64,000 nucleotides of DNA from Phyto melanocephala. Lineage: Eukaryota > Arthropoda > Insecta > Diptera > Rhinophoridae. The notes beneath the pieces were generated by a model. It was not told the origin of the DNA. It saw only the letters and a list, made by a program, of their open reading frames with translations, and did not search any database. This document shows positions 1 to 62,830 of the stretch, piece after piece. The stretch is from the NCBI GenBank assembly GCA_941918925.1, contig OW799233.1, positions 132,896,333-132,960,332 of the forward strand. The letters are read 5' to 3'. Position numbers and translations under genes: made by a program. Numbering within the stretch: the stretch's first letter is position 1; the number at the start of each line of letters is the position of its first letter.

Positions 1-1148
1 AACCTACTATCTTTGTTTTATTTTATTTTTATTTAATTTTTGGATCTTTCTTTTTTCGCATTTAAGTAATCGCCTTTACGACGCGCCTTTTTAATATTTT
101 AGATATAAAAGCTTCTTTTGCTTTTTGACAATAAAAACGAGACGATCGTTCAAAATTTTTGTTTTAAGTTTAAACGTTTTTTTGTTTTTATTTTTTTTTG
201 CGGAAAGTATGTGTAAATATTTATATTATACATGTGTATGTGTTTTAGCACAATTCAACATGTGAAAAAAGTTTTGCGTTTGAATTTCGATATTTCTTCT
301 TTTTGTTTGTTTGTTCCCTCTCTTTGTAAAATGCACAAATTTCAGCTGTATGAATGTTTGTGTGTATGCATGTACTCGCATGTATATCCTTTTTTGCGTT
401 TTGTTTTTCTTTTGACAATTGTTTGCCTATTGTGCCAAAACTAAATGTCTATCCTTTTGTTTACCTAAATATGTAAAAAAAACTCACATGTTTATGCGTA
501 TGTATGTATGTGCGTTTGCATTTTTTTGTTCATTTTCTAAATTTTTATTTTATGTATAGATTTGCTGGTTTTGTTTGCTTTTTTTGTAGTAAATTATTTT
601 TTCGTTGGTTTTCATTGTTCCTTAATGTTTGTTGTAAATTAAGCTCTGTTTTTTCTTGAACATTTATGGCTTTTTTTATACAATTGTTATATGTAATTTT
701 GATACCATGGCAGAAAAAGTGCAAAAATAAAAAAACTTGAATGATTTGTATAATATTTTTTTATTTTTATATGATGTATTTTGGTTTTATTCTTTCTACC
801 CATTTGCCTCTTTTTAATTTGTTTGCGTTTTTTAAAATTAGTGCTTTAGAATTTGTAAAAAAGAGCAGCATGTTAGTGGGTTTTGTAGTGAATTCAATTC
901 AATTTAGTTTTTTTTTTTTTTTTTTTTTGTATAAAAAAACAGGGTTTTAATCCTGGGAATGAAAGTGAAAAATCCCTAAAACTTGGGATATTAATTGTAT
1001 GTAAAAATCACGCTTGGGTTTTGAACTATATTTTTTTTTCTAGAATCTTTATAAAATGTATTAACAGTTAATGGGTGCAAGGCCAAATGCTTTTCCTCAT
1101 TTTAAGCGTAAAATTCTAAGCAATAAAGGCGAAACCCTTAGAAAAACT
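1..1148. other. AT-rich non-coding stretch
   Basis: T-rich sequence with long T runs (for example near 910-928) and scattered TGTATG motifs. Open frames here are short, low in complexity and match no family I recognise. No RNA gene, repeat boundary or promoter could be supported. Confidence 0.6.
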
Positions 1149-1360
1149 CAAGGCATATTTATTCATCAGGTAATTGCAGTTCGGAGAGAATTTTTTGTTT
1201 ATATTTTTTATATATGATGTTTGACATTTGAAATTAATTAGAAAAGCGAGGAAATTGTTTTTTATTTATGTATGTATTATGACAGCTGAAATTACAAATA
1301 AGTAATAAAAAAAATAATCAGCTGACGAATCAAGAGTACCTGATGAATAAATATGCCTTG
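1149..1360. mobile_element. CAAGG MITE, family A, 212 bp
   Basis: The element begins CAAGGCATATTTATTCATCA and ends with the reverse complement of that sequence, so the terminal inverted repeat is over 20 bp. An internal CAGCTGA motif lies near the right end. It has no coding capacity. The flanks gaaaaact (1141-1148) and acaaaact (1361-1368) look like a decayed 8-bp target duplication. The same family recurs at 12160-12754 and 13139-13346 in the opposite orientation. CA...TG ends with an 8-bp duplication suggest hAT-type mobilisation; that superfamily assignment is inference. Confidence 0.85.
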
Positions 1361-3709
1361 ACAAAACTAAAGAGTTATGATGTTTCAATTATCAAGATAT
1401 GTTTTCAGACCTTTTTGATTTGTGTAAAAAATATAAGTCCACTTAAGGAATGAAGAAAATAATAACAATTTGTTTTGGTGTTATTGTTTATGATATCGGA
1501 AAAGTTACATTCTTGTGCAGAAGATTAAGGTTAAACAAAAGTTTATTGACTACAATGATCATGCGGTTTCATCTTCCCTGACATTCTATTGTATGAATTT
1601 TGCAGGTAAAAAATCCATGATAATAAGCGAAAATTGAACAATGCCTTCAAATAAAACACAATCAAGATCATCGCTCAAACAGCTCAAACGTAGACAGGAT
1701 CATTATAAGTATAATATATGCCGAGATTAATAAGATGTCATATTGTATACATAAATAGTTCCGGGCAATATCGCAAAAAAATAAAAATAAGAAATGCAAA
1801 AAGCAGAAATAAACGAATAACTTCCCAAATTTTTTACAATAGCGGATTTCACTCTTCACTCTTGCAAATAAGGGATTTTAAAAGGTTTCGATTCAAAAGT
1901 ATTGTAGACAGTATGTGGTTTGATTAATGTCAGGACTGGAATCATGTGCCATAATTTGACAGAGATGGCAATCCTATCTAGGTTAATTTTAATGCAACTT
2001 GCTAAGGAACTCGGGCTATCTATCCCTTATTCATTGTTATCCGCTACGAGGCTATGTAGTTAATATGCAACAGAATCTGATGTGAGGTACGAAAGAAGCC
2101 CAACAATTCACCAACTAACTACTTCTATTGAAAGGCAACAGCACCTCTTAAAAATATATAGTTACCTATTAAACTATCATTCTTTGTTTCTGCTTAGGCG
2201 GGAACACCACCACAGATACTCAAGTGGTTGCCCGAAGTTCGATCAAGGTCGACAATCAGTTAATAAAGCACGCTGGAGTCTATTTACCCTCTTGGGATTA
2301 ACAACGACCACCACGACGAGATGTTAACTATAATCAGTCTATAGAACGAGTCATAAGAACATATTGATTTTCGCGGTACCAGTAAGAATTTGACCAGAGC
2401 TTTTTCTGAGAGAAACCAGAAGATTGATCCCAACTCTCTATCCAATACTGACAATACACCTTGGTTTAAAACTAGCTAAAAAGGTATGCCCTAGAGGGAA
2501 GCTTTGTAGACAGTCGGCTTTTTAGTGGGTACAGGTAACTTCAAACTTTCATAAACTTAAAACTCTTGCGGACTTTTAATTCTGGGAAAATTACAACGAC
2601 GATTTAAGCAAATTTTTAATTTTTAATGATATTCATCCTTGTTTTGAACATCAGTACCAATGCATATTTATTCAACATCGTTGATTATCTTAACATATAC
2701 TTGAATTTATACACAATTTTAATCTTAGAATGGTTGTTTATGCTTTTTCTAAATCAATTATTTTCTGTATTTAATGCTCTAAGGATTGCGATTTTTACAT
2801 AAACAGTTTCAGAAGTTGTCTCCTACTTGTTTCGGTTTTAACGCAACGTATTGGAAGGCCATAGTAATGCTGATAAACAAAATAGCGTATCTGTTCTATG
2901 ATACGGGTGTCTAAATATGAACTCTTATTTGTACTAAAAGAAATAATGACTGTTACTAGTTTATGGTTCTTCAAATTGGCTTTTAATTGATAGAATAGAA
3001 ATATTTGAAATTAATAGGAGGGACCACAAATGATAAAAAAAAAAAACTCTGCTCTTTTACACTACTGTTGGTTTTGCTAGAGATCAACATTTTTTAATGA
3101 CGAAAATTTTATTTTATAGATTGTTTCATTCAATTTATTAAAAGGATTTTTGTACTTTCGTTACTGAACTTTGTTTATTTGCTTGTTTAAGTTTTGTTCT
3201 GAAGGAAATGAGTTATTTGCTTTCACAGAATTTTCAGCCGACCAGATGCGGCAGGATGCTGCTCAATTCGTTGAGCAATAAGTAAGTTATTATTCAATTA
3301 ACTAATAAAAAAAATAGCAACTTTTAAACATAAGTTATTCAAGAAAATCGTTCTTTCGATTCATCGTCTTTCCTTGATATCTCTATATGTATTTAAATTT
3401 CTTGACATTAACTTGTTTTTTATCAAGCCACAATTATACAGGTATATGCGAACAACAAAGCAACTTTATAGGGGATTTTTTCAGTCAAGTCAAATTCGTA
3501 TATACAGAAATGGAAGAGTTGTTATAATCTATTTTACTTAAAAAAATTTCTTATAAAATGATATCTATAACTGAAACTAATAACTAAGGATGGTAAAACA
3601 AAAATATAAATAAAATTATTATATTTGTTGTTAACGAAGTACACTTAAGTTAATTGTTCAGTACCAAAACGAAAATTCCATTTACCATCAATGCATAAAT
3701 AAATGAAAT
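1361..3709. other. Unassigned stretch with a less AT-rich island
   Basis: Most of this is AT-rich and featureless. From about 1950 to 2560 the base composition is visibly more balanced, with phrases such as ccaccacgacgagatg near 2309-2324. That texture can mark an old retroelement LTR or an exon. I found neither LTR ends nor a long frame (best about 80 codons, unrecognised), so the island stays unexplained. Confidence 0.4.
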
Positions 3710-3782
3710 CTAGGTGAATTCAACATACATTATGGTTCCCGATCAGCTGTTTCCACGGGGTTACCAGTATGAATATGCCTTG
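3710..3782. mobile_element. Short CAAGG-type MITE relic
   Basis: The right end, ccagtatgaatatgccttg, closely resembles CAAGG-family termini, and the left end ctaggtgaattcaac resembles the family B left end. Between them is a CAGCTG-containing core. At 73 bp this would be an internally deleted family B copy. No target duplication is visible, so the assignment is tentative. Confidence 0.4.
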
Positions 3783-4930
3783 ATTTTTTCAAAATGTTTT
3801 ATTTCTATTATATGTTTGTATGTATATGTATGTAATTTTTTCACAAAATTTTTAGAGAAACTTTTTTAAATTTTTAAGTTTTTTTTCAATCTGACAAACT
3901 GCATTTCTATATAATCCCCTTACGAAACTCATAAAATTATAAACGTTTTTTTTTGACAGATTTCCATTTACTTTAAATGGTTATTTGTGATTTTTCTGTT
4001 TGTTTCCTTTCATATTTTAATTTATTTTTCTTTTGTAAACTTTGTAATATTATACATAAAACACGAACACATAAACATGAACACATGTACACATCTAAAA
4101 AAGCTAAAAAATTAATTATAATATTTGGTGTGTGTTTGTATGCCAGTGTATACAATACGAACTTGTTTTCATATTATTTTGGCAAAATAAAAAATTCACA
4201 AATAAAAAGGGTGTAGCCTAGAGGGGCTTTTCTTTTGTAAACCTTTGTATTTATCATTATAAAGGGATTGTTTGTTTGTTCGGTAGATTTTTGTGTTTTT
4301 TTTTTCTCAATTGTCATACATATGTAACATGAACGAGTTTTTTAAGTAAATTTTACTTTGTAAAAAAGCACCAATACATACAAAAAATCCATTTAGAAAT
4401 TGTAACTACAATGATTGAGTATAACAAGGGCATACAAATATTAAATAGACATTGTGAAATTTATATTTTCAACAACAAACAATAATAAAATAAATCTTTG
4501 AAATATCCGCAATTAATTAACATGAAATTCAAACAATTGCAATATAAACGTAAAATTACGATCAATATAAAAATATGTAATAAAAATTAGGGATTTTATG
4601 AAAAAAAAGTTCAAACAGTTGTATTTTTAAATTAAACAAAAATATATGTAATGCGAAGAAATGGTTTACAAGCAAAAAGGTTATATTTTGAGACAGAGGG
4701 CTTAAAAAGTAAGTGTTTTCACCTAAAGAAAAAACATGGTTGTGATAATCATAATCTAATATTGGAATATTGGAAGCAATTTATTTCAGCTCAATGCTGC
4801 TTGTAGGAGTTTACTGAAACAAATGTATTAAAAAAATTAATTAATATGACCATTGTGTATAAATTTAGTTAAATTATAATCATGTGATGGCAATAGGTTC
4901 GTATCCCAGCCACTCCCACTAAAACATACG

Positions 4931-5561
4931 TTTTTATACCCTTCACCTGTGGTGCACAAGGGTATATATAAATAGCTTTGTAATTCCGTTTGTAATTTCT
5001 ACAATTTTCATTTCCAACCCCATAAAGTATATATTTTCTGAAAGCCTCTGAATATAGGAGTCAATTAAGCCCTGACCGTCTGTCTGTGTGTTGGTTGAAA
5101 TCAACTTTTAAAAGCAACTATATGTTCCTCAGATCTGAGTATGGTATCAATCTCTTGGAAATATCCGGGAATGAATCGCTATTGAAACTCAGCACAATCG
5201 CCCTATAACTTTCTGAGATATGAGCAAAAAACCACGACCACCTGGCATCGAGCCAGCTGAGCCATTTTTTAATTTAAAAAAAAAAAAATTTTTTTTTAAT
5301 TTTTTAAAATTTTTTTTTATTGTTGTTTTTTTGTTTTTAATACATTTTTTTTTATTTTTTTAGAAATTTTTTTTTTGGAAACATACATATGTACGTAAAC
5401 TCAATTTATAATTTTGCAATGGGATGTTTTGTATATGTATGTACGTATTTCATATGAGTTGAATAATACAATGAATGATACATACAATTGTTATTGCATG
5501 AATACACGTTGTGAAGGGTATATAAGATTCGGCACGGCTGAATATAGCACTTTTACTTGTT
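4931..5561 (-). repeat. TATACCC-ended interspersed repeat (copy 1)
   Basis: It runs from tttttatacccttcacc to gaagggtatataagattcgg, followed by a CGGCTGAATATAGCAC-like end and ttttacttgt. Inside are the phrases also seen at 15785-16222: a tract related to the GACGGACAGACGG motif, the cataaagtatatattttctg segment and accacgaccacc. The central part is an A/T homopolymer-rich stretch. It has no coding capacity. The repeat is non-autonomous and of unknown class; similar sequences are familiar from higher flies, but I cannot name the family. Confidence 0.7.
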
Positions 5562-12159: not shown

Positions 12160-12754
12160 CAAGGCACATTTATTCATCAGGTAGTATTATTTCGTCAGCT
12201 GATTATTTTTTTCTTTACTTATTTTAAATTTCAGCTGTCAAAGTCTATAGATAAAAAACAAATTTCTCTCCTCTCTCCTTTATTTCAAATATCAAACTTC
12301 ATATATTAAAAATATAAACAAAAAAATTCTCTCCGAACTGCAATTACCTCAAGGCGAATTCATACAGGTGAAATTATCAGCCCAGCTGATTGTGAAACAT
12401 TTTGTCAAAATTGGTTGAATTCGCTTTGATTTCATTTATTAATGCAGGGATAGGAAATATGATTTTGGTTTCGGTATTAAACAATTAACTTGAGTGTACT
12501 TTTTTGACAATAAATGTGCTTAATTTATGTATATTTTTTGCTTTTGCGTCATTAATACTGTGTTTAAAAAATTTATATTCTGTTTTTAATCAAATTTTAT
12601 TATATTTAATATGTAAAAACAACTTTTCCATCCCTAATATACGAATTGGCCTTGACATAAAACATCCCATGAAAAGTTGCTTTGTTGTTTCAATTCGCCG
12701 TTGCATATACCTTATGGATATGCCTTGAATTACCTGATGAATTAATATGCCTTG
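12160..12754. mobile_element. CAAGG MITE family A (A1), interrupted
   Basis: Begins CAAGGCACATTTATTCATCA and ends aattaatatgccttg. Without the nested element and its duplicated target it is 209 bp, close to the 212-bp copy at 1149-1360, but in the opposite orientation. Internal landmarks are shared: cagctgattatttttt, then aattctctccgaactgcaat. The nested B1 splits it just inside the right terminal repeat. Confidence 0.9.
12350..12727. mobile_element. CAAGG MITE family B (B1), nested in A1
   Basis: 378 bp, beginning CAAGGCGAATTCATACAGGT and ending ccttatggatatgccttg. It is flanked by perfect 8-bp duplications aattacct at 12342-12349 and 12728-12735. That octamer occurs once in the intact family A copy at 13139-13346, which confirms the insertion. 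There is no coding capacity. Confidence 0.92.
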
Positions 12755-12762
12755 GGTAGAAG

Positions 12763-13130
12763 CAAGGCGAATTCATACAGGTGAAATTATCAGCCCAGCT
12801 GATGGGGAGACTTTATGTCAAAACAGGTTGAATTTGCCTTATTAATGCAGGGAAGGGAAATGTGATTTTGAGTTATGTATTAAACAATTAACTTACGTGT
12901 ACTTTTTCGATAATAAATGTGCTAAATTTATGTATATTTGTTGCTTTTAGGGCATTAATAATGTGTTTCAAGCAATTATATCCTTTTTTAAATCAAATTT
13001 TATTATATTTAATATGTAAAAACAACTTTTTCACCCCTGATATACGAATTGGCCTTGACATAAAACATCTCATGAAAAGTTGCTTTGTTGTATCAATTCG
13101 CCGTTGCATATACCTTATGGATATGCCTTG
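12763..13130. mobile_element. CAAGG MITE family B (B2)
   Basis: 368 bp, same ends as B1 and highly similar along its length, including ttggccttgacataaaacat and a right end with the cgccgttgcatatacc block. Flanked on both sides by ggtagaag. Non-coding. Confidence 0.92.
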
Positions 13131-20608: not shown

Positions 20609-21394
20609 CAGGGATGAAAATCATGGTACAATTGTACTTTTTTTGGTACATTTTTGACTAGGTTGATACCGTGGTACTACCGCGAGCTACTTGGTACAAT
20701 TTAAAAATTCCAATGTCTCACTACATGGCAACAATAATTTTGTCTATGCTCTCTTTAATTTTGTTTGTATATGCCTTTTTTTATACTGTCAACTTCTCTG
20801 TTGTTGGTTCAATGCTGTTGTCAAAACGAATTCGTGTACCAAGTCTGCAACAACAAAATCTGTCTAGTACTTTATTTCATTGAACTTAGATCACACAAAG
20901 ATTCAAATATTTCCTATTTTTGGTCTGAGGTATCTCAGATGAAAAATGAATTAAATGAGTTCATGTTCCCAGATATTTCAAGAAGAGAAATTTTGTCTAT
21001 TCCGCATTCCTCGACCATTGTCGAACGAGTTTTTTCTTTCCAAAACCTAATTAAAACAAAGGATAGAAATAGAAATAGGATAGAAACTATTTCAAATTCG
21101 ATACAAACAAAGGATTAACTAAAGTCAACAAATTCTTGTTGCTTTAATTTGAAAATAACAGAAAATTTATTATCTAAAAGTATTTAATAAATAAAATTTG
21201 TTAAACAAGCGATCTTTACGTATGTATCTATGAATGTAATATTTTTTATTGTATACTTCTGAATTTTTATAAACATTTTTGTTAAGTTTATGTTTTTATT
21301 AATAAATATTAAAAAAATGGTACCGTCATGACCTAAAAAGTACATTTTGTTTTCATATGTGGTACAAAATCATAAAAGCCATTTTCCTTCCCTG
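20609..21394 (+). mobile_element. hAT deletion derivative with perfect 8-bp duplication
   Basis: 786 bp. The left end is cagggatgaaaatcatggta and the right end complements to cagggaaggaaaatgg, giving imperfect terminal repeats that start CAGGGA. Perfect target duplications aatcatag lie at 20601-20608 and 21395-21402. Subterminal ggtac motifs recur at both ends. Inside is only the C-terminal part of a transposase. The length is far below a full hAT element, so it is non-autonomous. Confidence 0.92.
20915..21118 (+). pseudogene. hAT transposase C-terminal fragment
   Basis: Reads FWSEVSQMKNELNEFMFPD and then REILSIPHSSTIVERVFSFQ, ending KTKDRNRNRIET. This is the hAT dimerisation region, with the ERVFS block and the basic KRNR-like end. 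The upstream half of the gene is missing. It sits inside the element with CAGGGA ends, so it marks that element as hAT. It differs clearly from the fragment at 11139-11462 and represents another family. Confidence 0.8.
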
Positions 21395-44055: not shown

Positions 44056-44757
44056 ATGGCAATTACGGAAGGAATTAAATGGATTAAGGAAACGAATAGC
44101 AAAGCCCTGATTTGTATCTTTACGGATAGCCAATCAGTGATGAGGACATTGGAAAAGGAGAAAGTTGAGTTCCGGAACGTTCTGCAATGCAAGAGCGAGA
44201 TAAACTCATATGCAAATTGTGAACATCTGGAGATAATATGGATACCAAGCCATCACGGGCTGATCGGAAACGAGAAAGCCGACAAATTATCCAAAATGGG
44301 AGCTCTTCTGAGTACTACAACTTTGGAGAAAGCTAAACCCCTTAAACGATTCAAGGATGAACTTAAATGTTGGACGACGGAGGAAAATGTCAGAAAATCA
44401 CAAGGCACTGATGTTGGTAAAGTGACAAAAATACTATGGGGTGACCCAAATCTTGGGAAATCAAAGGAAATTTTGAGACTAAGTAGACCAACACTAAGGA
44501 GACTAACTGGTGTGATTACAGGTCATACGTAGTTGAGAACTCATCTAGCTCGCATGAAATTGTCTGAGGAAACGACATGTAGAGCATGCGAGAAGAAGGA
44601 AGAGACTTTGATACACTATCTCTGTCATTGTCCTGTGTTTGGGCATATTAGACGCGAGAACTTTACAGTGAATAATATGCCGAATTTGGAGTACCTGGGG
44701 AACTCGAACTGGAGATCAATAAGGAATTACATTAAGGGTACTGAGTTCTTAAGCTAG
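44056..44757 (+). pseudogene. LINE RNase H and zinc knuckle, inner copy 1
   Basis: RNase H blocks: MAITEGIKWI, IFTDSQSVMRTL (catalytic Asp in TDSQ), IIWIPSHHGLIGNEKADKLS (last catalytic Asp in the GNEKAD block). The first Asp block (TDGS) upstream is lost to a frameshift and the usual E before MAI is K. A stop at 44530 separates this from the zinc knuckle CRACEKKEETLIHYLCHC. Unlike inner copy 2, the knuckle is complete. A 4-bp insertion (tgta, near 44012) breaks the frame upstream. Not functional. Confidence 0.85.
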
Positions 44758-45018
44758 TCCGATATTTATGCGAAAATATGATTATGGTTTTTGTTTGGGA
44801 ATTTCGTTTCCCACATGGAGCGCACAACATGCCAACTGGGCATAAGTGTATACCTGTCATAGGGTAATATGTGACCAAATCCCGATGATATATGAAAATA
44901 CTAACTGCAGCACCTTAATGCCGGAAGAGGGAGAATGGGATGAAATAACCAGGATAGGAAACACCCATAGAATCGATTTTTATACAAAGATTGGTCAAAG
45001 ATTGGTGACCAAACTGGA

Positions 45019-45591
45019 GTGAGCTTATACCACATAAGCCGAAACAGAAGCAAATACTTACGTCTACCAGATCACAATACCATTTTCCAGTCTAAGATCA
45101 TGGCAATTACGGAAGGAATTAAATGGATTAAGGAAACGAATAGCGAGGCCCTGATTCGTATCTTTACGGATAGTCAATCACTGACGAGGACATTGGGAAA
45201 GGAGAAAGTTGAATTCCGGAATGTTCTGCAATGCAAGAGCGAGATAAACTCATATGCAAATTGTGAACATCTGGAGATAATATGGATACCAAGCTATCAC
45301 GGGCTGATCGGAAACGAGAAAGCCGACAAATTATCCAAAATGGGAGCTCTTCTGAGTACTATAACTTTGGAGAAAGCTAAACCCTTTAAACGATTCAAGG
45401 ATGAACTTAAATGTTGGACGACGGAGGAACATGTCAGAAAATGGCAAGGCACTGATGTCGGTAAAGTGACAAAAATACTATGGGGTGACCCAAATCTTGG
45501 GAAATCAAAGGAAATTCTGAGACTAATTAGACCAACACTCAGGAGACTAACCAGTGTGATTACAGGTCATGCGGAATTAAGACCCTTCTAG
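45019..45591 (+). pseudogene. LINE RNase H, inner copy 2
   Basis: A 190-codon open frame from MSLYHISRNRSKYLRLPDHN through IFTDSQSLTRTL to IIWIPSYHGLIGNEKADKLS. It lacks the 4-bp insertion of copy 1, so the frame is longer, but the expected E is again K (QSKIMAI) and the His of the PSHHG block is Y (PSYHG). About 30 bp of the zinc knuckle are deleted after 45613. Copies 1 and 2 differ by several per cent by eye, so the inner duplication is older than the 3,466-bp one. Confidence 0.85.
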
Positions 45592-45926
45592 CTCGCATGA
45601 ATTGTCTGAGGAAACGATTTGATACACTATCTCTGTCATTGACTTCGTTTGGGCATATGAGACGCGAGAATTTTACAGTGAATAATATGCCGAATTTGGA
45701 GTACCTGGGGAATTCGAACTGGAGATCAATAAGGAATTACATTAAGGGTACTGAGTTCTTGGGCTAGTCCGATATTTATGGGAAAATATGATTATGGTTT
45801 TTGTTTGGGAATTTCGTTTCCCACATGGAGCGCACAACATGCCAACTGGGCATAAGTGTATACCTGTCATAGGGTTGGGCTTTTAGTGCCCCTCCTTTTC
45901 AATCTAACCTAACCTTCATAAAAAGA

Positions 45927-46520
45927 ATATTAAAAAAGAAAAAATATTTTAGATGATAACAATTATCCAATCCAGTTAATTTGTAAATTGAGAAATAATT
46001 AAAAAATGGGAATATTTATGGCACAAACTCAACAATCTGAATCTGAAACTTATAAATCACTCACTTATGTTCCTTTTTTATCTGAAAATATAAAACACAT
46101 AAAACACGTTAGGTAGACTATTTAGTAAAACAATAGACAAAATAGATAAATTTGAAATGTCTAATTTAGTTTATAAAATACCATGTAGTTGTAATGACAC
46201 TGAGAGTTGTGATAAGGTTTATGTAGGTACAACAAAAAATAAACTTAAAACTGGAGTTGCTGGACATAGATCTGATCAGAAATACAAGAACACTACATTG
46301 ATACAGAAAAAAGCATTATCATTGCATTGCGCCAATTCTAATCATTGGTCTGATTTCAAAAATACATAAATTTGAAACAAAGAAAAAAATTACAAACGCA
46401 GAAATATGTTAGAAATTTTGCAAATTATTAAAGTACCATCTACACAGCGAATTAACTATAAGACAGATACTGCAAATGTTGTAAAATATTGTAGATTTTT
46501 AATTTATAAGATCTGAAAAC
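45927..46520 (+). pseudogene. Penelope-like GIY-YIG endonuclease region
   Basis: The frame at 46157-46369 reads MSNLVYKIPCSCND, then CDKVYVGTTKNKLKT, then AGHRSDQKYK and LHCANSNHW. This has the order of the GIY-YIG endonuclease of Penelope-like elements: VYKIPC, a cysteine pair, YVG, a KLKTR-like Arg region (Gly here where Arg is expected) and a Cys-His end. Downstream, MLEILQIIKVPSTQRINYKTD matches the C-terminal tail. Stops upstream and the changed Arg position indicate loss of function. It continues the reverse transcriptase half at 43085-43576. Confidence 0.8.
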
Positions 46521-47143
46521 GATACTCTAATAGGGTTTTTTATTTGTGTAATGTAAAAGTTTCTAATTTTTGACTGGCTATTGCATACCAAATTTGAAAG
46601 TCCTACGAAAACTTCTTATATTTTTGCCACATTGTTATATGGAGTTAATGCAATGGTTTTGCGTAGTGTCATGAATACAACATAATTTATTTTCAAGTAC
46701 TCTGACCATGGTTTGGGCATAGTTTGTAAATTTTATCTTTAAGATCTGCTACCCAACCAGAAAAAGTCGTCAATAATTAAATCACAAAATATTGGTGAGC
46801 TATTTTTTTTTAATAAATAATTATTTCATTTTATTTGAACTTTCCTGCAAAAAATAAAGTTTGAACTTATTATAATGAATTGATTTTACAATGATATTAT
46901 ATTTAGAAAATTTTTAAATATAAAAACTTTTATTAAGTCAAGCAGAAAATAATACTTTTTAGTAGTAACGTCCTTTTTGGCATATATTGTCATGATGTAG
47001 GCATACATTTACACTCATTTCAAAAGCGAAGTTTCTTTATTTATATATATAAAACATGTTCAAATAAAACAGCTTAACTAACATGTCCCCTATATCTTCC
47101 CCCTCTTATGACCTAATATTATATTATAACTCCACACTTTCCT

Positions 47144-47289
47144 TCATCTCACATACAAATGATCATAAATAACACTCCATAAAAATTCTTTTTTAAGACA
47201 ACCTCCTTCACACCTTCGAATATCTACTTCATCACTGCAAGACTTCCTTAAAAACTTTCTAATTTCTTTTTCACTGCAAATTTTAAATT
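47144..47289 (-). CDS. Candidate host exon, cystine-knot-like
   Basis: The minus strand has a good acceptor (acaatttttgcag, AG at 47291-47290). An open segment follows: FKICSEKEIRKFLRKSC, SDEVDIRRCEGGC, then LKKEFLWSVIYDHLYVR-stop. The spacing of cysteines with a C-x-GGC motif recalls the start of C-terminal cystine-knot domains of slit or von Willebrand type proteins. The segment may end at a donor-like gtatgtgag within the final codons or at the stop; AATAAA lies about 100 bp beyond (47042-47037). No neighbouring exon was found. Low confidence. Confidence 0.28.
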
Positions 47290-47521
47290 CTGCAAAAATT
47301 GTTTGTTTTATAACTAACCAAAGTATACGATGCATTTACGTGTGTAATGATAGACACTGTGAATAACCAGGATAGGAAACACCCATAGAATCGATTTTTA
47401 TACAAAGATTGGTCAAAGATTGGTGACCAAACTGGAGTGAGCTTATACCACATAAGCCGAAACAGAAGCAAATACTTATGTACGTCTACCAGATCACAAT
47501 ACCATTTTCCAGTCTAAGATC

Positions 47522-48223
47522 ATGGCAATTACGGAAGGAATTAAATGGATTAAGGAAACGAATAGCAAAGCCCTGATTTGTATCTTTACGGATAGCCAAT
47601 CAGTGATGAGGACATTGGAAAAGGAGAAAGTTGAGTTCCGGAACGTTCTGCAATGCAAGAGCGAGATAAACTCATATGCAAATTGTGAACATCTGGAGAT
47701 AATATGGATACCAAGCCATCACGGGCTGATCGGAAACGAGAAAGCCGACAAATTATCCAAAATGGGAGCTCTTCTGAGTACTACAACTTTGGAGAAAGCT
47801 AAACCCCTTAAACGATTCAAGGATGAACTTAAATGTTGGACGACGGAGGAAAATGTCAGAAAATCACAAGGCACTGATGTTGGTAAAGTGACAAAAATAC
47901 TATGGGGTGACCCAAATCTTGGGAAATCAAAGGAAATTTTGAGACTAAGTAGACCAACACTAAGGAGACTAACTGGTGTGATTACAGGTCATACGTAGTT
48001 GAGAACTCATCTAGCTCGCATGAAATTGTCTGAGGAAACGACATGTAGAGCATGCGAGAAGAAGGAAGAGACTTTGATACACTATCTCTGTCATTGTCCT
48101 GTGTTTGGGCATATTAGACGCGAGAACTTTACAGTGAATAATATGCCGAATTTGGAGTACCTGGGGAACTCGAACTGGAGATCAATAAGGAATTACATTA
48201 AGGGTACTGAGTTCTTAAGCTAG
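47522..48223 (+). pseudogene. LINE RNase H and zinc knuckle, outer duplicate of copy 1
   Basis: Same translation as 44056-44757, including the stop before the zinc knuckle, so the break predates the 3,466-bp duplication. It lies in unit 2, which lacks the reverse transcriptase end present before unit 1. Confidence 0.9.
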
Positions 48224-48484
48224 TCCGATATTTATGCGAAAATATGATTATGGTTTTTGTTTGGGAATTTCGTTTCCCACATGGAGCGCACAACATGCCA
48301 ACTGGGCATAAGTGTATACCTGTCATAGGGTAATATGTGACCAAATCCCGATGATATATGAAAATACTAACTGCAGCACCTTAATGCCGGAAGAGGGAGA
48401 ATGGGATGAAATAACCAGGATAGGAAACACCCATAGAATCGATTTTTATACAAAGATTGGTCAAAGATTGGTGACCAAACTGGA

Positions 48485-49057
48485 GTGAGCTTATACCACA
48501 TAAGCCGAAACAGAAGCAAATACTTACGTCTACCAGATCACAATACCATTTTCCAGTCTAAGATCATGGCAATTACGGAAGGAATTAAATGGATTAAGGA
48601 AACGAATAGCGAGGCCCTGATTCGTATCTTTACGGATAGTCAATCACTGACGAGGACATTGGGAAAGGAGAAAGTTGAATTCCGGAATGTTCTGCAATGC
48701 AAGAGCGAGATAAACTCATATGCAAATTGTGAACATCTGGAGATAATATGGATACCAAGCTATCACGGGCTGATCGGAAACGAGAAAGCCGACAAATTAT
48801 CCAAAATGGGAGCTCTTCTGAGTACTATAACTTTGGAGAAAGCTAAACCCTTTAAACGATTCAAGGATGAACTTAAATGTTGGACGACGGAGGAACATGT
48901 CAGAAAATGGCAAGGCACTGATGTCGGTAAAGTGACAAAAATACTATGGGGTGACCCAAATCTTGGGAAATCAAAGGAAATTCTGAGACTAATTAGACCA
49001 ACACTCAGGAGACTAACCAGTGTGATTACAGGTCATGCGGAATTAAGACCCTTCTAG
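48485..49057 (+). pseudogene. LINE RNase H, outer duplicate of copy 2
   Basis: Same 190-codon frame as 45019-45591, including K in place of the expected E and the PSYHG variant. The LINE 3' end of this unit is at 49380. Confidence 0.9.
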
Positions 49058-52005: not shown

Positions 52006-52391
52006 CCAGACGAATTCATACAGGTGAAATTATCAGCACATGATGATGGGGAAACATAATGTCTAAATTTGTTGAATTCTCCTTGATTAAATTTATTAAT
52101 GCAGGAATGGAAAATTAGATTTTGGATTCCGTATTGAACATTTAACTTAATTGTGATTTTTTGATAATAAATTTACCAAATTTATGTATATTTGTTTTTC
52201 TTGCAGCATTTAAATATAATGTGCTTCACAGACACATATCCTTTTTCTAATAAAATTTTTTTTTGAATTAAATATACAAACACAACTTTTCCATCCCTGT
52301 TATAAGAATTGGCCTTGATAGAAAAAATCCCCTAAAAAATTGCTTTGTTGTATCGATTCGCCGTTGCATATACCTCTATGAATATGACTTG
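52006..52391. mobile_element. CAAGG MITE family B (B3)
   Basis: 386 bp. The left end is mutated (ccagacgaattcatacaggt) and the right end is tgaatatgacttg. Perfect 8-bp duplications gtaacgct lie at 51998-52005 and 52392-52399. The core aligns with B1 and B2 (tgatgatggggaaac, ttggccttgata, cgccgttgcatatacc). Older than B1 and B2 by its substitutions. Confidence 0.88.
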
Positions 52392-59912: not shown

Positions 59913-60729
59913 TATGGAGATTAAAAAAGGATAAATAAATAGAAAATTTTCCAAAGTTGTTTCTTTAATAATTAAAAAAAAAACAATAATTTAAAATTTA
60001 ATCCAATTAAAAAAAAAACTCTTAACATTGTTTTTTCATAATTCACAAAAAAAAAAAATTAAATAATTTACAAAATGGTTGTTTGTTTTTAAAATAAAAT
60101 CTTAAAAATATTATTTTCCATATTTTCAAAAATAAATTGAAATCTTTTTGTTTTTGATAATCAGTAATTTAAATAAACATACAGAAAAATTATTGAAAAT
60201 ATTTAAATATTTAATATTGAAATAATTTTACTAAGTTTATTTAAGCGATGATAATTTCTTTAATTTTAAAATTTTTGAAATTCTAAAAATTTAATTTTTT
60301 TTAAATATGGAGATTAAAAAAGGAGAAAAGAGTAGGAAATTTTTCCAAAATTTTTCTATTAATACTTAAAAATATATTAAAATAATTAAAAAAAAATAAT
60401 AATTTAATATACAAATAAACTCTTAACAATCATTTCACAAAAAGAAAACAATATGAAGTGTTGTATAAAATGGTTGTGTGTTTTTAAAATAAAATCTTTC
60501 TATAAATATTATACATTTAAATTTTTAAAAATAAATTGAAATCTAAGGCATATTCAAGGTCTATTAAATAAGGTCTGTTCAACTAATCAGCTGATCGTTT
60601 TTTGCTCCCCTATGTTTACTACTCGAATTTGTCAAAATTTGTTTACCTTTTTATGGCGACATTTATGTTTTTCAATTTTATGATTGATACTTTTTCAACT
60701 TATGATTTATATTCAAAAGTGCAATGCAG

Positions 60730-60974
60730 TGAGCCGGACATGCTGGGAAAAGGCGTTTCTGTACCCAAGGACTGAGCCACACCAACAGCTATAGCAGCCT
60801 TGCCATTACTTGGCTCACAGGCCAAGAAAATACAACGATTAGCTATTTTGCCTTCACGCACCATTTGTACAACACCAGCAGCGAAACGAGCATCTTTCTG
60901 GCCCAACATACCTTGTGAAACAGCACGCTTCTTCAAGACATCGTCTAGACTTCGATTTTATCTTTATCAGCCAT
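60730..60974 (-). pseudogene. rept: Captured fragment of reptin (RUVBL2-type AAA+ ATPase)
   Basis: Minus strand from the ATG at 60974: MADKDKIEV, then a deletion that shifts frame, then LDDVLKKRAVSQGMLGQKDA, RFAAGVVQMVREGKIANRC, IFLACEPSNGKAAIAVGVAQ, SLGTETPFPSMSGS, where similarity stops (60730). This is the N-terminus of reptin, the RuvB-like 2 helicase of INO80, Tip60 and R2TP complexes. The Walker A motif, usually GEPSTGKT in flies, reads CEPSNGKA, losing the Thr needed for Mg-ATP binding. About 20 residues after KIEV are missing. No intron is visible, but the fragment is too short to prove an RNA origin. The copy is non-functional; whether it is transcribed as antisense is unknown. Confidence 0.85.
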
Positions 60975-61065
60975 ATTTTTAGCAAATATTTACTATTAAC
61001 ACAATTTATTTTTGTTGTCTTGAAAAAATTGTTAAACAAAATGAAAACACAAAATTTAATAGGCG

Positions 61066-61213
61066 TTGGGCATATTCATACAGGTATATGCAACGGCGAA
61101 TTTGCTGTACTGCTCTCTGTCAAATACTTCATAAAAAATAATTTTGTATACATAGAGTTTGATAGTAACGTTTCCCATCAGATGGACTGATAATTTCACC
61201 TGGATGAATTTTT
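61066..61213 (-). mobile_element. Internally deleted family B copy inside element C
   Basis: Starts ttgggcatattcatacaggt with atgcaacggcgaatt, and ends cccatcagatggactgataa then tttcacctggatgaatt, the two ends of family B with most of the middle removed. About 148 bp. No clear target duplication. Confidence 0.65.
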
Positions 61214-61780
61214 TGGTATTTTAGTCAGCTGTTTTTGACTACCTTACAGTAATTTTACACTAACAAAATGCCCGTATATTTTTTTTGCTTTTTGTTTTTG
61301 TAGAGTTGCACAGACCTTATTTAATAGACCTTGGGCATATTCATACAGGTACATACAACGGCGAATTGATACAACAAAGCAACTTTTTACTGAATATTTT
61401 CTGTCATAGCCAATTTGTATAACAGGGACTGACAACTTATTGTGATGTGTTTAATTTAATAAAATTCTACTTAAAAAAGCATACATATTTGTGATACACA
61501 TTATGAATGGTGAAAAACAGTAAATATACATCAATTTGACACATTTATTATCGAAAAAGTACATTTAATTTAATTTCTTAATACTGAAATAAAAATCTCA
61601 TTTTCAATCTCTAATTTAATAATAAATATCAAGCGAATTCAAAAAATTTTGATAAAATGCCTTCCCATCATCTGGGCTGATAATTTAACCTGTATGAATT
61701 CGCCTTGTTGAAATCTTTGTGTTTTTAATAATCAGTAATTTAATGACTGAAAATATATTAAAAAAAGTTATTAAAAAATT

Positions 61781-62269: not shown

Positions 62270-62830
62270 TCATTTATACTGAAGGCAAAATACGTAGTGT
62301 GTTGGCTGTAGTCTTGGAATGAGGAAAGAACTTTGAATTTTGAAGCAAGTTGACCTCATATGATCGTGTTTTACAATGAAACAAAAAATGAAGTTGATAC
62401 ACTGCACCCAATGTACCATGAAATATCGTGCTCTCGGAAGACTAACAGATGGTCAATGTGCATATTTTATAGTATTCAGAACATTGAATTTATCAATAGT
62501 CATATCATTTATGCCCATAATATGCTCAGTCTCAATAAAAAAGCCTCGTGTGTGAAGGAAAGTTTTAAAATGCCTACTTTGATAAATACAACTAGAGCAA
62601 ATATTGAAAAAGTTTTTACAGAAGTTGAAATAAATACCGACAGCGAAAAAATAGAGGAAACGAAGTATGTGTAGATGCTATCAATACCAAAAAAAAACCG
62701 AATGACAAAGTTACTCTTGCGAAAATCAAAGCATGTGTAAGGCGAAGATTTAAAGCAACGAATACGTGCTTCTACTTATTTTTAAGAATTATATAAAATA
62801 ATTGTACCATTTTCTACCGATTTCCCTAAT
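62270..62830 (+). pseudogene. piggyBac-like transposase C-terminal relic
   Basis: The 104-codon frame at 62360-62674 opens MIVFYNETKNEVDTLHPMYH, then EISCSRKTNRWSMCIFYSIQ, then NIEFINSHIIYAHN. It matches the conserved piggyBac block YN.TK.GVD..DQ.C..Y...R.T.RWP...FY...D....NA.., which follows the catalytic Asp region. The GVD Asp, itself part of the active site in this family, is retained as EVD, while the following DQ is changed to HP. Flanking frames are degenerate. No TTAA-flanked ends were found. Inactive remnant. Confidence 0.8.

Follow-up and report, generated by a model that had tools for sequence, protein, structure and literature searches.

A short P-superfamily element in the Phyto melanocephala genome carries a piece of the host reptin gene and probably derives from reptin-bearing P elements

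A 779-bp element at positions 60555-61333 of the 64,000-nucleotide stretch of Phyto melanocephala DNA analysed here (the window; unless a contig or locus is named, positions refer to it) harbors, between its terminal repeats, a piece of the reptin gene in antisense orientation. This arrangement raises the question of which kind of element this is, how it came to carry part of a host gene, and whether the fragment has any role at the sites to which it has spread.

A short element carrying reptin and its copies across the genome

The boundaries of the element and the reptin sequence within it were delineated as follows.

60547..60554, no strand: left target-site duplication, GGCATATT, identical to 61334-61341
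60555..60584, plus strand: left terminal inverted repeat, starting CAAGGTCTATTAAATAAGGTCTG, from inverted-repeat comparison
60731..60950, minus strand: captured reptin coding fragment with one codon deleted, corresponding to 672-894 of the native stretch, from Pfam, PDB and DNA alignment
60949..60991, minus strand: reptin ATG, the 17 bases before it and the first codons, corresponding to native 573-615, 77% identity
61304..61333, minus strand: right terminal inverted repeat, from inverted-repeat comparison
61334..61341, no strand: right target-site duplication, GGCATATT, an exact match to the left one

A sequence-only reading of this locus had described perfect 24-bp terminal repeats, a perfect 8-bp target duplication and no transposase. 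The duplication is indeed a perfect 8 bp, the same on both flanks, and no transposase ORF was found in the window copy; the repeats are present, but they span 30 nt and contain one mismatch (29/30, 97%). The window contains a 23-nt end sequence at two places, the two termini of the element, and 100 shuffles of the window gave no match to it with up to 3 mismatches allowed. An Rfam scan of the window returned no match.

The minus-strand ORF of the element matches the Pfam TIP49 family (E = 1.3e-19), and among PDB entries RuvB-like 2 (reptin) outscores RuvB-like 1 (pontin). Intact native reptin was found at one place in the genome (C3:21025739-21027063), with two exons, an ATG at 590 and a stop codon at 2318 of the native stretch, and its first exon likewise ranks RuvB-like 2 first (4.6e-74 versus 4.8e-42 for RuvB-like 1). 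A better-scoring TIP49 place on C1 is pontin (RuvB-like 1, 5.2e-196). Aligned to the native gene, 60731-60950 is 88% identical at the DNA level (196/223 columns, with one 3-base gap) and 60949-60991 is identical at 33 of 43 positions. About 56 native bases between the two pieces are missing from the element, its Walker A motif is altered, and the window copy holds exon 1 sequence only, with no intron sequence. The TIP49 match, the two alignments and the 17 bases preceding the ATG, all on the minus strand, bear out the earlier proposal of an antisense reptin N-terminus with its ATG and an apparent 5' leader. That proposal had been made to depend on the insert aligning to reptin, which it does at both the protein and the DNA level, and on copies existing beyond the native gene, which occupies a single place on C3, with hundreds of copies elsewhere. 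The locus thus shows the arrangement that defines a Pack-TIR, host gene sequence between terminal repeats with the parent gene elsewhere in the genome.

The genome searched comprises 739.75 Mb in 9 contigs. The exact 23-nt end is present in 642 copies (324 + 318), and a 25-nt reptin tag that spans the 3-base deletion, and is absent from the native gene, occurs at 289 places (127 + 162); the reversed control gave 0 in both cases. From these counts we estimate about 300 elements, and the 289 derived-tag places outside the native gene substantiate the suggestion that the reptin piece had spread to other loci. The best 40 of 813 candidates from the DNA search are all full length or nearly so, at 95-100% identity. 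Exact duplications flank 36 of them (34 of 8 bp, 2 of 9 bp), the duplications of the other four being inexact; all 40 start with CAAG and 39 finish with CCTTG. Two loci, L017 and L025, have a common flank and are probably one insertion that was duplicated. Complete short elements with exact duplications number 54 when each is counted once. Their lengths run from 580 to 960 bp, with 44 at 762-788 bp; an exact reptin 15-mer is found in 47, and the remaining seven are partly deleted or mutated there. When 51 elements with exact duplications are oriented from the left end, their target sites give the motif A-T-R-GTTNNAAC-Y-W-T, which is palindromic without imposed symmetry; the published P target motif is the 8-bp GTCCGGAC (PMC3276498).

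Searching the terminal repeat for copies with and without the insert, as the sequence-only reading had proposed, showed reptin at most of the places sampled. It is present at all of the first 30 end places, many of which are the two ends of one element, and at 15 of 20 end places picked as unpaired or oddly spaced, to which inspection of more flank added three (L075, L076 and L083); it was not found at the other two (L078/L095 and L081/L096). A 242-bp derivative at L096:6822-7063 retains both ends and a duplication, CACTACAC, and lacks reptin.

Transposase-bearing relatives and the origin of the short form

The family includes larger members. A 1993-bp copy, L071, has a longer reptin piece and an ORF with a THAP domain. 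This THAP sequence was used as a genome query, with the best 150 of 407 candidates scored; the genome matches to reptin comprise 118 listed, with 117 of 523 candidates scored. Counted by eye among the listed matches, at least 15 THAP places lie within 11 kb of a reptin match, and in all 15 pairs so counted the two are on opposite strands and face each other. Ten THAP places reach 95% identity or more: eight are paired with reptin in this way and a ninth (L101) contains it, while the tenth, at C5:23725383, was left out. Among the matches listed, at least 14 THAP-domain places occur within 71 kb at C5:23718309-23789112, which may be either a graveyard of P elements or a cluster of THAP genes.

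Two of the larger loci have the structure of complete elements. L100, on C3, extends over 5241 bp between the same ends and is flanked by an exact 8-bp duplication, GTTTGTAT; L102, on C4, shares 98.6% identity with it across 5258 columns and has an exact 8-bp duplication of its own, CATAGATA. Both carry reptin, and their terminal repeats are nearly the same as those of the window element. L100 contains a THAP domain (2.1e-10) and the P RNase H N-terminal (1.1e-17), GTP-binding (3.6e-10), RNase H C-terminal (2.9e-9) and C-terminal (2.3e-5) domains, with an HTH match just under the cut-off, and its longest ORF matches the solved P transposase in the PDB with an E value of 4.7e-64; a further match of L100 to solved P transposase has an E value of 3.2e-22. 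Reptin and a piece of a second MITE family, MITE-B, lie within the last kilobase of L100, opposite to the transposase. Judged by these predicted products, L100 and L102 are full-length elements that encode a P-element transposase and carry the captured reptin. The 8-bp duplications, the terminal repeats of about 30 bp common to the transposase bearer and the THAP-containing P transposase are the features by which the P superfamily is recognized. Classical P elements also have 11-bp subterminal inverted repeats; no such pair is among the four inverted pairs of the window element, where only CAGCTGA was seen, by eye, near each end.

Compared with L100, the window element resolves into two segments.

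60555..60726, plus strand: P element 5' end, corresponding to L100 bases 1-172, 95.9% identity
60731..61333, plus strand: P element 3' end, including the captured reptin and MITE-B pieces, corresponding to L100 bases 4639-5241, 98.3% identity

The window element has no match to L100 between bases 172 and 4639. The same holds for all 54 complete short elements, in which the left match to L100 ends at 125-195 and the right one begins at 4419-4934, with no match between. Because nothing but the two ends of L100 matches in any of the 54, the short form is best read as an internal-deletion product, and the window element as a P element minus about 4.5 kb. A different deletion, from 688 to 3473, is common to L071 and L101. 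We therefore consider it very probable that the window element is a non-autonomous MITE of the P superfamily, internally deleted from a transposase-bearing P element that had captured reptin. Internal deletions of about 4.5 kb would have left some 125-195 bp of the left end and some 600 bp of the right end, removing the transposase and most of the remaining reptin, and the resulting short form would have been moved in trans by the P transposase and risen to about 300 copies. Such mobilization by the transposase of the family is suggested by the ends and duplication length that the short form shares with the P element. The earlier description of a gene-capturing MITE accordingly holds insofar as a mobile element captured host reptin, but P elements that bear transposase already contain the capture, and the MITE appears to be a deletion derivative of them.

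The capture of reptin and the fate of the captured piece

The end of the native intron is kept in all nine larger relatives with reptin (L071, L091-L094 and L099-L102). In each it joins exon 1 at native position ~989, and eight of the nine have the extra bases TTACCTGC, which are not present in the native stretch, with a two-base variant in L093. L093 and L094 align, with internal deletions, to native 506-2464 and 498-2464, thus starting 84 and 92 bases before the ATG and running about 146 beyond the stop codon; L094 is a 1433-bp element with both ends and no matching duplication. In the window element, L071 and L100-L102 the match to native exon 1 begins only at 672, except for the short piece at the ATG, which the window element and L071 have. 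L100 (native 2018-2170 and 1304-1441) and L102 (2018-2170 and 1304-1485) contain reptin stretches not found in the short form. Aligning the insert to the reptin locus, another check that had been proposed, hence gives a divided answer on intron retention: there is none in the window copy, and the larger relatives retain the intron end in nine of nine cases.

Since the intron end is retained, the source would have been genomic DNA and not an mRNA copy, in keeping with the capture from DNA that characterizes Pack-TIRs. The one junction, with its intron end, in all nine relatives argues for one event. Thirteen of 220 columns differ from native reptin in common across five element sequences, and the evidence pointing to a single capture is thus one junction plus shared sites polarized by the native gene as sole outgroup, some of which possibly changed in the native lineage. 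We found no evidence of a second, independent capture, the junction being shared. The tandem reptin places at C3:44531454/44535503 were evaluated as intact elements and rejected; they represent an old copy within a tandemly repeated stretch that has copia-like ORFs in between (copia assigned by eye). A triple of reptin places also occurs at C3:50080840-50089171, and one old, large element has a tandem duplication of the 3' part of reptin (L091:5092-5691).

The following course of events would account for these observations. A transposase-bearing P element would have taken up host DNA with most or all of reptin, from before the ATG to the 3' flank and including the intron, which came to lie in its 3' end in opposite orientation to the transposase gene; the captured gene would later have decayed, and one descendant lineage would have gained part of a different MITE. 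Double-strand breaks left behind by P elements are mended by copying, for which an ectopic template can serve. The uptake may have occurred by copying from reptin during break repair at a P element (template switching). Quesneville et al. (2006, PMC1562414) proposed break repair from an ectopic template to account for the inner part of P-MITEs, and Tan et al. (2021, PMC8277862) suggested either gap filling or template switching at replication forks as the source of animal Pack-TIRs. The reptin capture is compatible with break-repair copying and with replication-fork template switching alike.

Three other accounts of the element's origin were weighed against this one. An already short element might have captured reptin and passed the piece on to larger elements afterwards; among the reptin carriers seen, short forms are by far the most numerous, and the inner part of Anopheles P-MITEs is described as unrelated to P masters (PMC1562414). 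The larger elements, however, hold reptin stretches absent from the short form (up to native 2464 in L093 and L094), these are joined at one shared junction, and the five larger elements compared are all somewhat more diverged from native reptin than the majority sequence of the short copies (83.2-88.1% versus 89.5% identity, over different column sets), so that we regard this order of events as very unlikely. Whether the gene or a retrocopy of its mRNA was captured cannot be told from the exon 1 sequence of the window copy alone, but a retrocopy is made exceedingly improbable by the end of the native intron, which all nine larger elements with reptin preserve, and by the reach of L093 and L094, 84 and 92 bases before the ATG and about 146 past the stop. 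An assignment to the hAT superfamily would fit the length and motif of the target duplications about as well as the P superfamily, hAT elements also generating 8-bp duplications with a GT....AC motif (GTNCGNAC in hobo); with P transposase domains encoded by a full-length element with these very ends, and no hAT domain reported in the L100 ORFs scanned, it too has next to no likelihood. Descent of the short form from a reptin-bearing P element is therefore retained as the preferred reading.

Divergence of the reptin piece among short copies was calculated on 59 rows (loci L001-L090 without L071, excluding rows with fewer than 216 bases of the piece). It amounts to ~1.0% from their own majority and to 1.8% in median pairwise comparison, rough figures because overlapping loci of the same element were kept. 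Changes private to single elements distribute as 26/10/15 over the three codon positions, an inequality (p 0.02) toward first positions; with no third-position excess there is no sign of protein constraint, and a coding function was rejected. The longest exact match to the native coding sequence is at most 20 nt in 51 of the 54 complete short copies (20 nt in 41 of the 54) and reaches 21 nt or more in three. Five older elements have 10 to 86 21-mers in common with the native transcript plus flanks and L100 has six, whereas none was found in L071 and L101. As judged from the codon positions and match lengths, a coding or simple small-RNA role of the captured piece is unlikely, and small RNA against reptin is not favoured.

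These data also bear on whether the piece might be functional, with read-through from the P transposase or transcription near genes yielding antisense or small RNA that lowers reptin expression. The facing arrangement of transposase and reptin in 15 of the 15 pairs counted by eye, and the 21-mers of the five older elements, would suit such a role; the scarcity of matches of 21 nt or more in short copies and the few or no shared 21-mers in L100, L071 and L101 would not, and the orientation is explained by retention through descent. We consider it very unlikely. It is likewise very unlikely that reptin has been useful to the P element itself, its 5' region at the element's 3' end serving as an open-chromatin promoter or as a source of antisense reptin RNA; if true, this would explain why overlapping parts of exon 1 were kept in the larger relatives examined.

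A second MITE family and relation to known elements

The insertion site and the interior of the element both involve MITE-B.

60536-60543 and 61708-61715, no strand: 8-bp duplication TTGAAATC of the interrupted MITE-B copy, read in the sequence
60544..61707, no strand: MITE-B copy (pieces 60544-60554 and 61334-61707), its left end interrupted by the element, from sequence comparison
61069..61218, plus strand: MITE-B fragment inside the element (matched stretches 61069-61102 and 61158-61210; right edge approximate)

The bases immediately left of the element complete the end of the same MITE-B copy that forms its 3' flank. Because both flanks make up one copy with its own TTGAAATC duplication, the element evidently went into the left end of a MITE-B, which identifies GGCATATT as the true target duplication. 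The internal MITE-B piece is missing at the same place in the older elements L093 and L094 (an empty site), suggesting that it was gained after the capture of reptin. MITE-B sequence on both sides also accounts for a direct repeat in the window (61054-61102 and 61319-61367). Left of the internal piece, the element's own terminal repeat recurs at 13 of 15 bases (61054-61068 versus 61319-61333), as though an earlier P end had perhaps adjoined MITE-B in the founder; a compound derived from two neighbouring P ends within a MITE-B would be a guess. Four further MITE-B copies in the window (3452-3875, 12343-12724, 12725-13127 and 52008-52386) show 64-77% identity, two of them arranged head to tail at 12343-13127. 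MITE-B starts with CAAGGCRWATTCATACAGG, and the single copy checked is flanked by an 8-bp duplication; with a CAAGG start and a CAGCTGAT motif that resemble P ends, the family is possibly a P-MITE too.

KP and other shortened P elements of Drosophila melanogaster derive from a full-length one by loss of internal sequence and are moved in trans. The short form resembles them in its making, and we know of no host gene inside any of them. Plant Pack-MULEs likewise hold a gene piece between terminal repeats in many copies; they belong to the MULE superfamily, with another transposase and 9-bp duplications. Membership in that group was rejected on the duplications (8 bp in 34 and 9 bp in 2 of the best 40 copies) and on the P domains of L100.

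The P-MITEs of Anopheles gambiae are described as non-autonomous elements of 205-2450 bp with P ends, 8-bp duplications and a non-P middle, in 5 to 310 copies (44 to 571 elsewhere in the paper) (PMC1562414). The window family shares their ends, duplications, short non-autonomous copies and non-P inner sequence. In Anopheles that inner sequence resembles no P element and its origin was called controversial, the question left in 2006 being whether it is degenerate P sequence or host DNA copied during break repair (PMC1562414); here, in contrast, the inner sequence goes back to a host gene and also occurs in the family's full-length P elements. The window family is also similar to animal Pack-TIRs, including Ssk-FB4 of Drosophila, in which a host gene piece within a TIR element has been transposed with distinct duplications (PMC8277862). 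Surveying 100 animal reference genomes, Tan et al. (2021) found no insect Pack-TIR and only four multicopy cases; the frog multicopy Pack-TIR occupies three sites, Ssk-FB4 has four copies and no known transposase, and most animal Pack-TIRs are hAT or Tc1/mariner (PMC8277862). The family described here differs in belonging to the P superfamily, in its approximately 300 copies and in having transposase and captured gene together in the full-length form, and it represents an insect DNA transposon that has spread a host gene piece to hundreds of sites. The literature on MITE gene capture, Pack-TIRs, P elements with host genes and transduplication, to the extent available, yielded no reptin-carrying P element or MITE; P-MITEs and Pack-TIRs are each known there, and a P carrier with transposase, captured gene and hundreds of short products was not found. 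The order of events can be followed here because a single genome contains the inner sequence and its host gene together with carriers that bear transposase, deletion intermediates and about 300 short products.

The window contains traces of other mobile elements. At 44056-49057, RNase H-type ORFs are repeated with a 3466-bp shift, by comparison of the sequence a tandem duplication of a retroelement stretch; the one such ORF scanned matches Pfam RNase_H just below the cut-off. ORFs at 20765-21118 and 62360-62674 match hAT dimerisation and DDE_Tnp_1_7 transposase domains barely above the cut-off.
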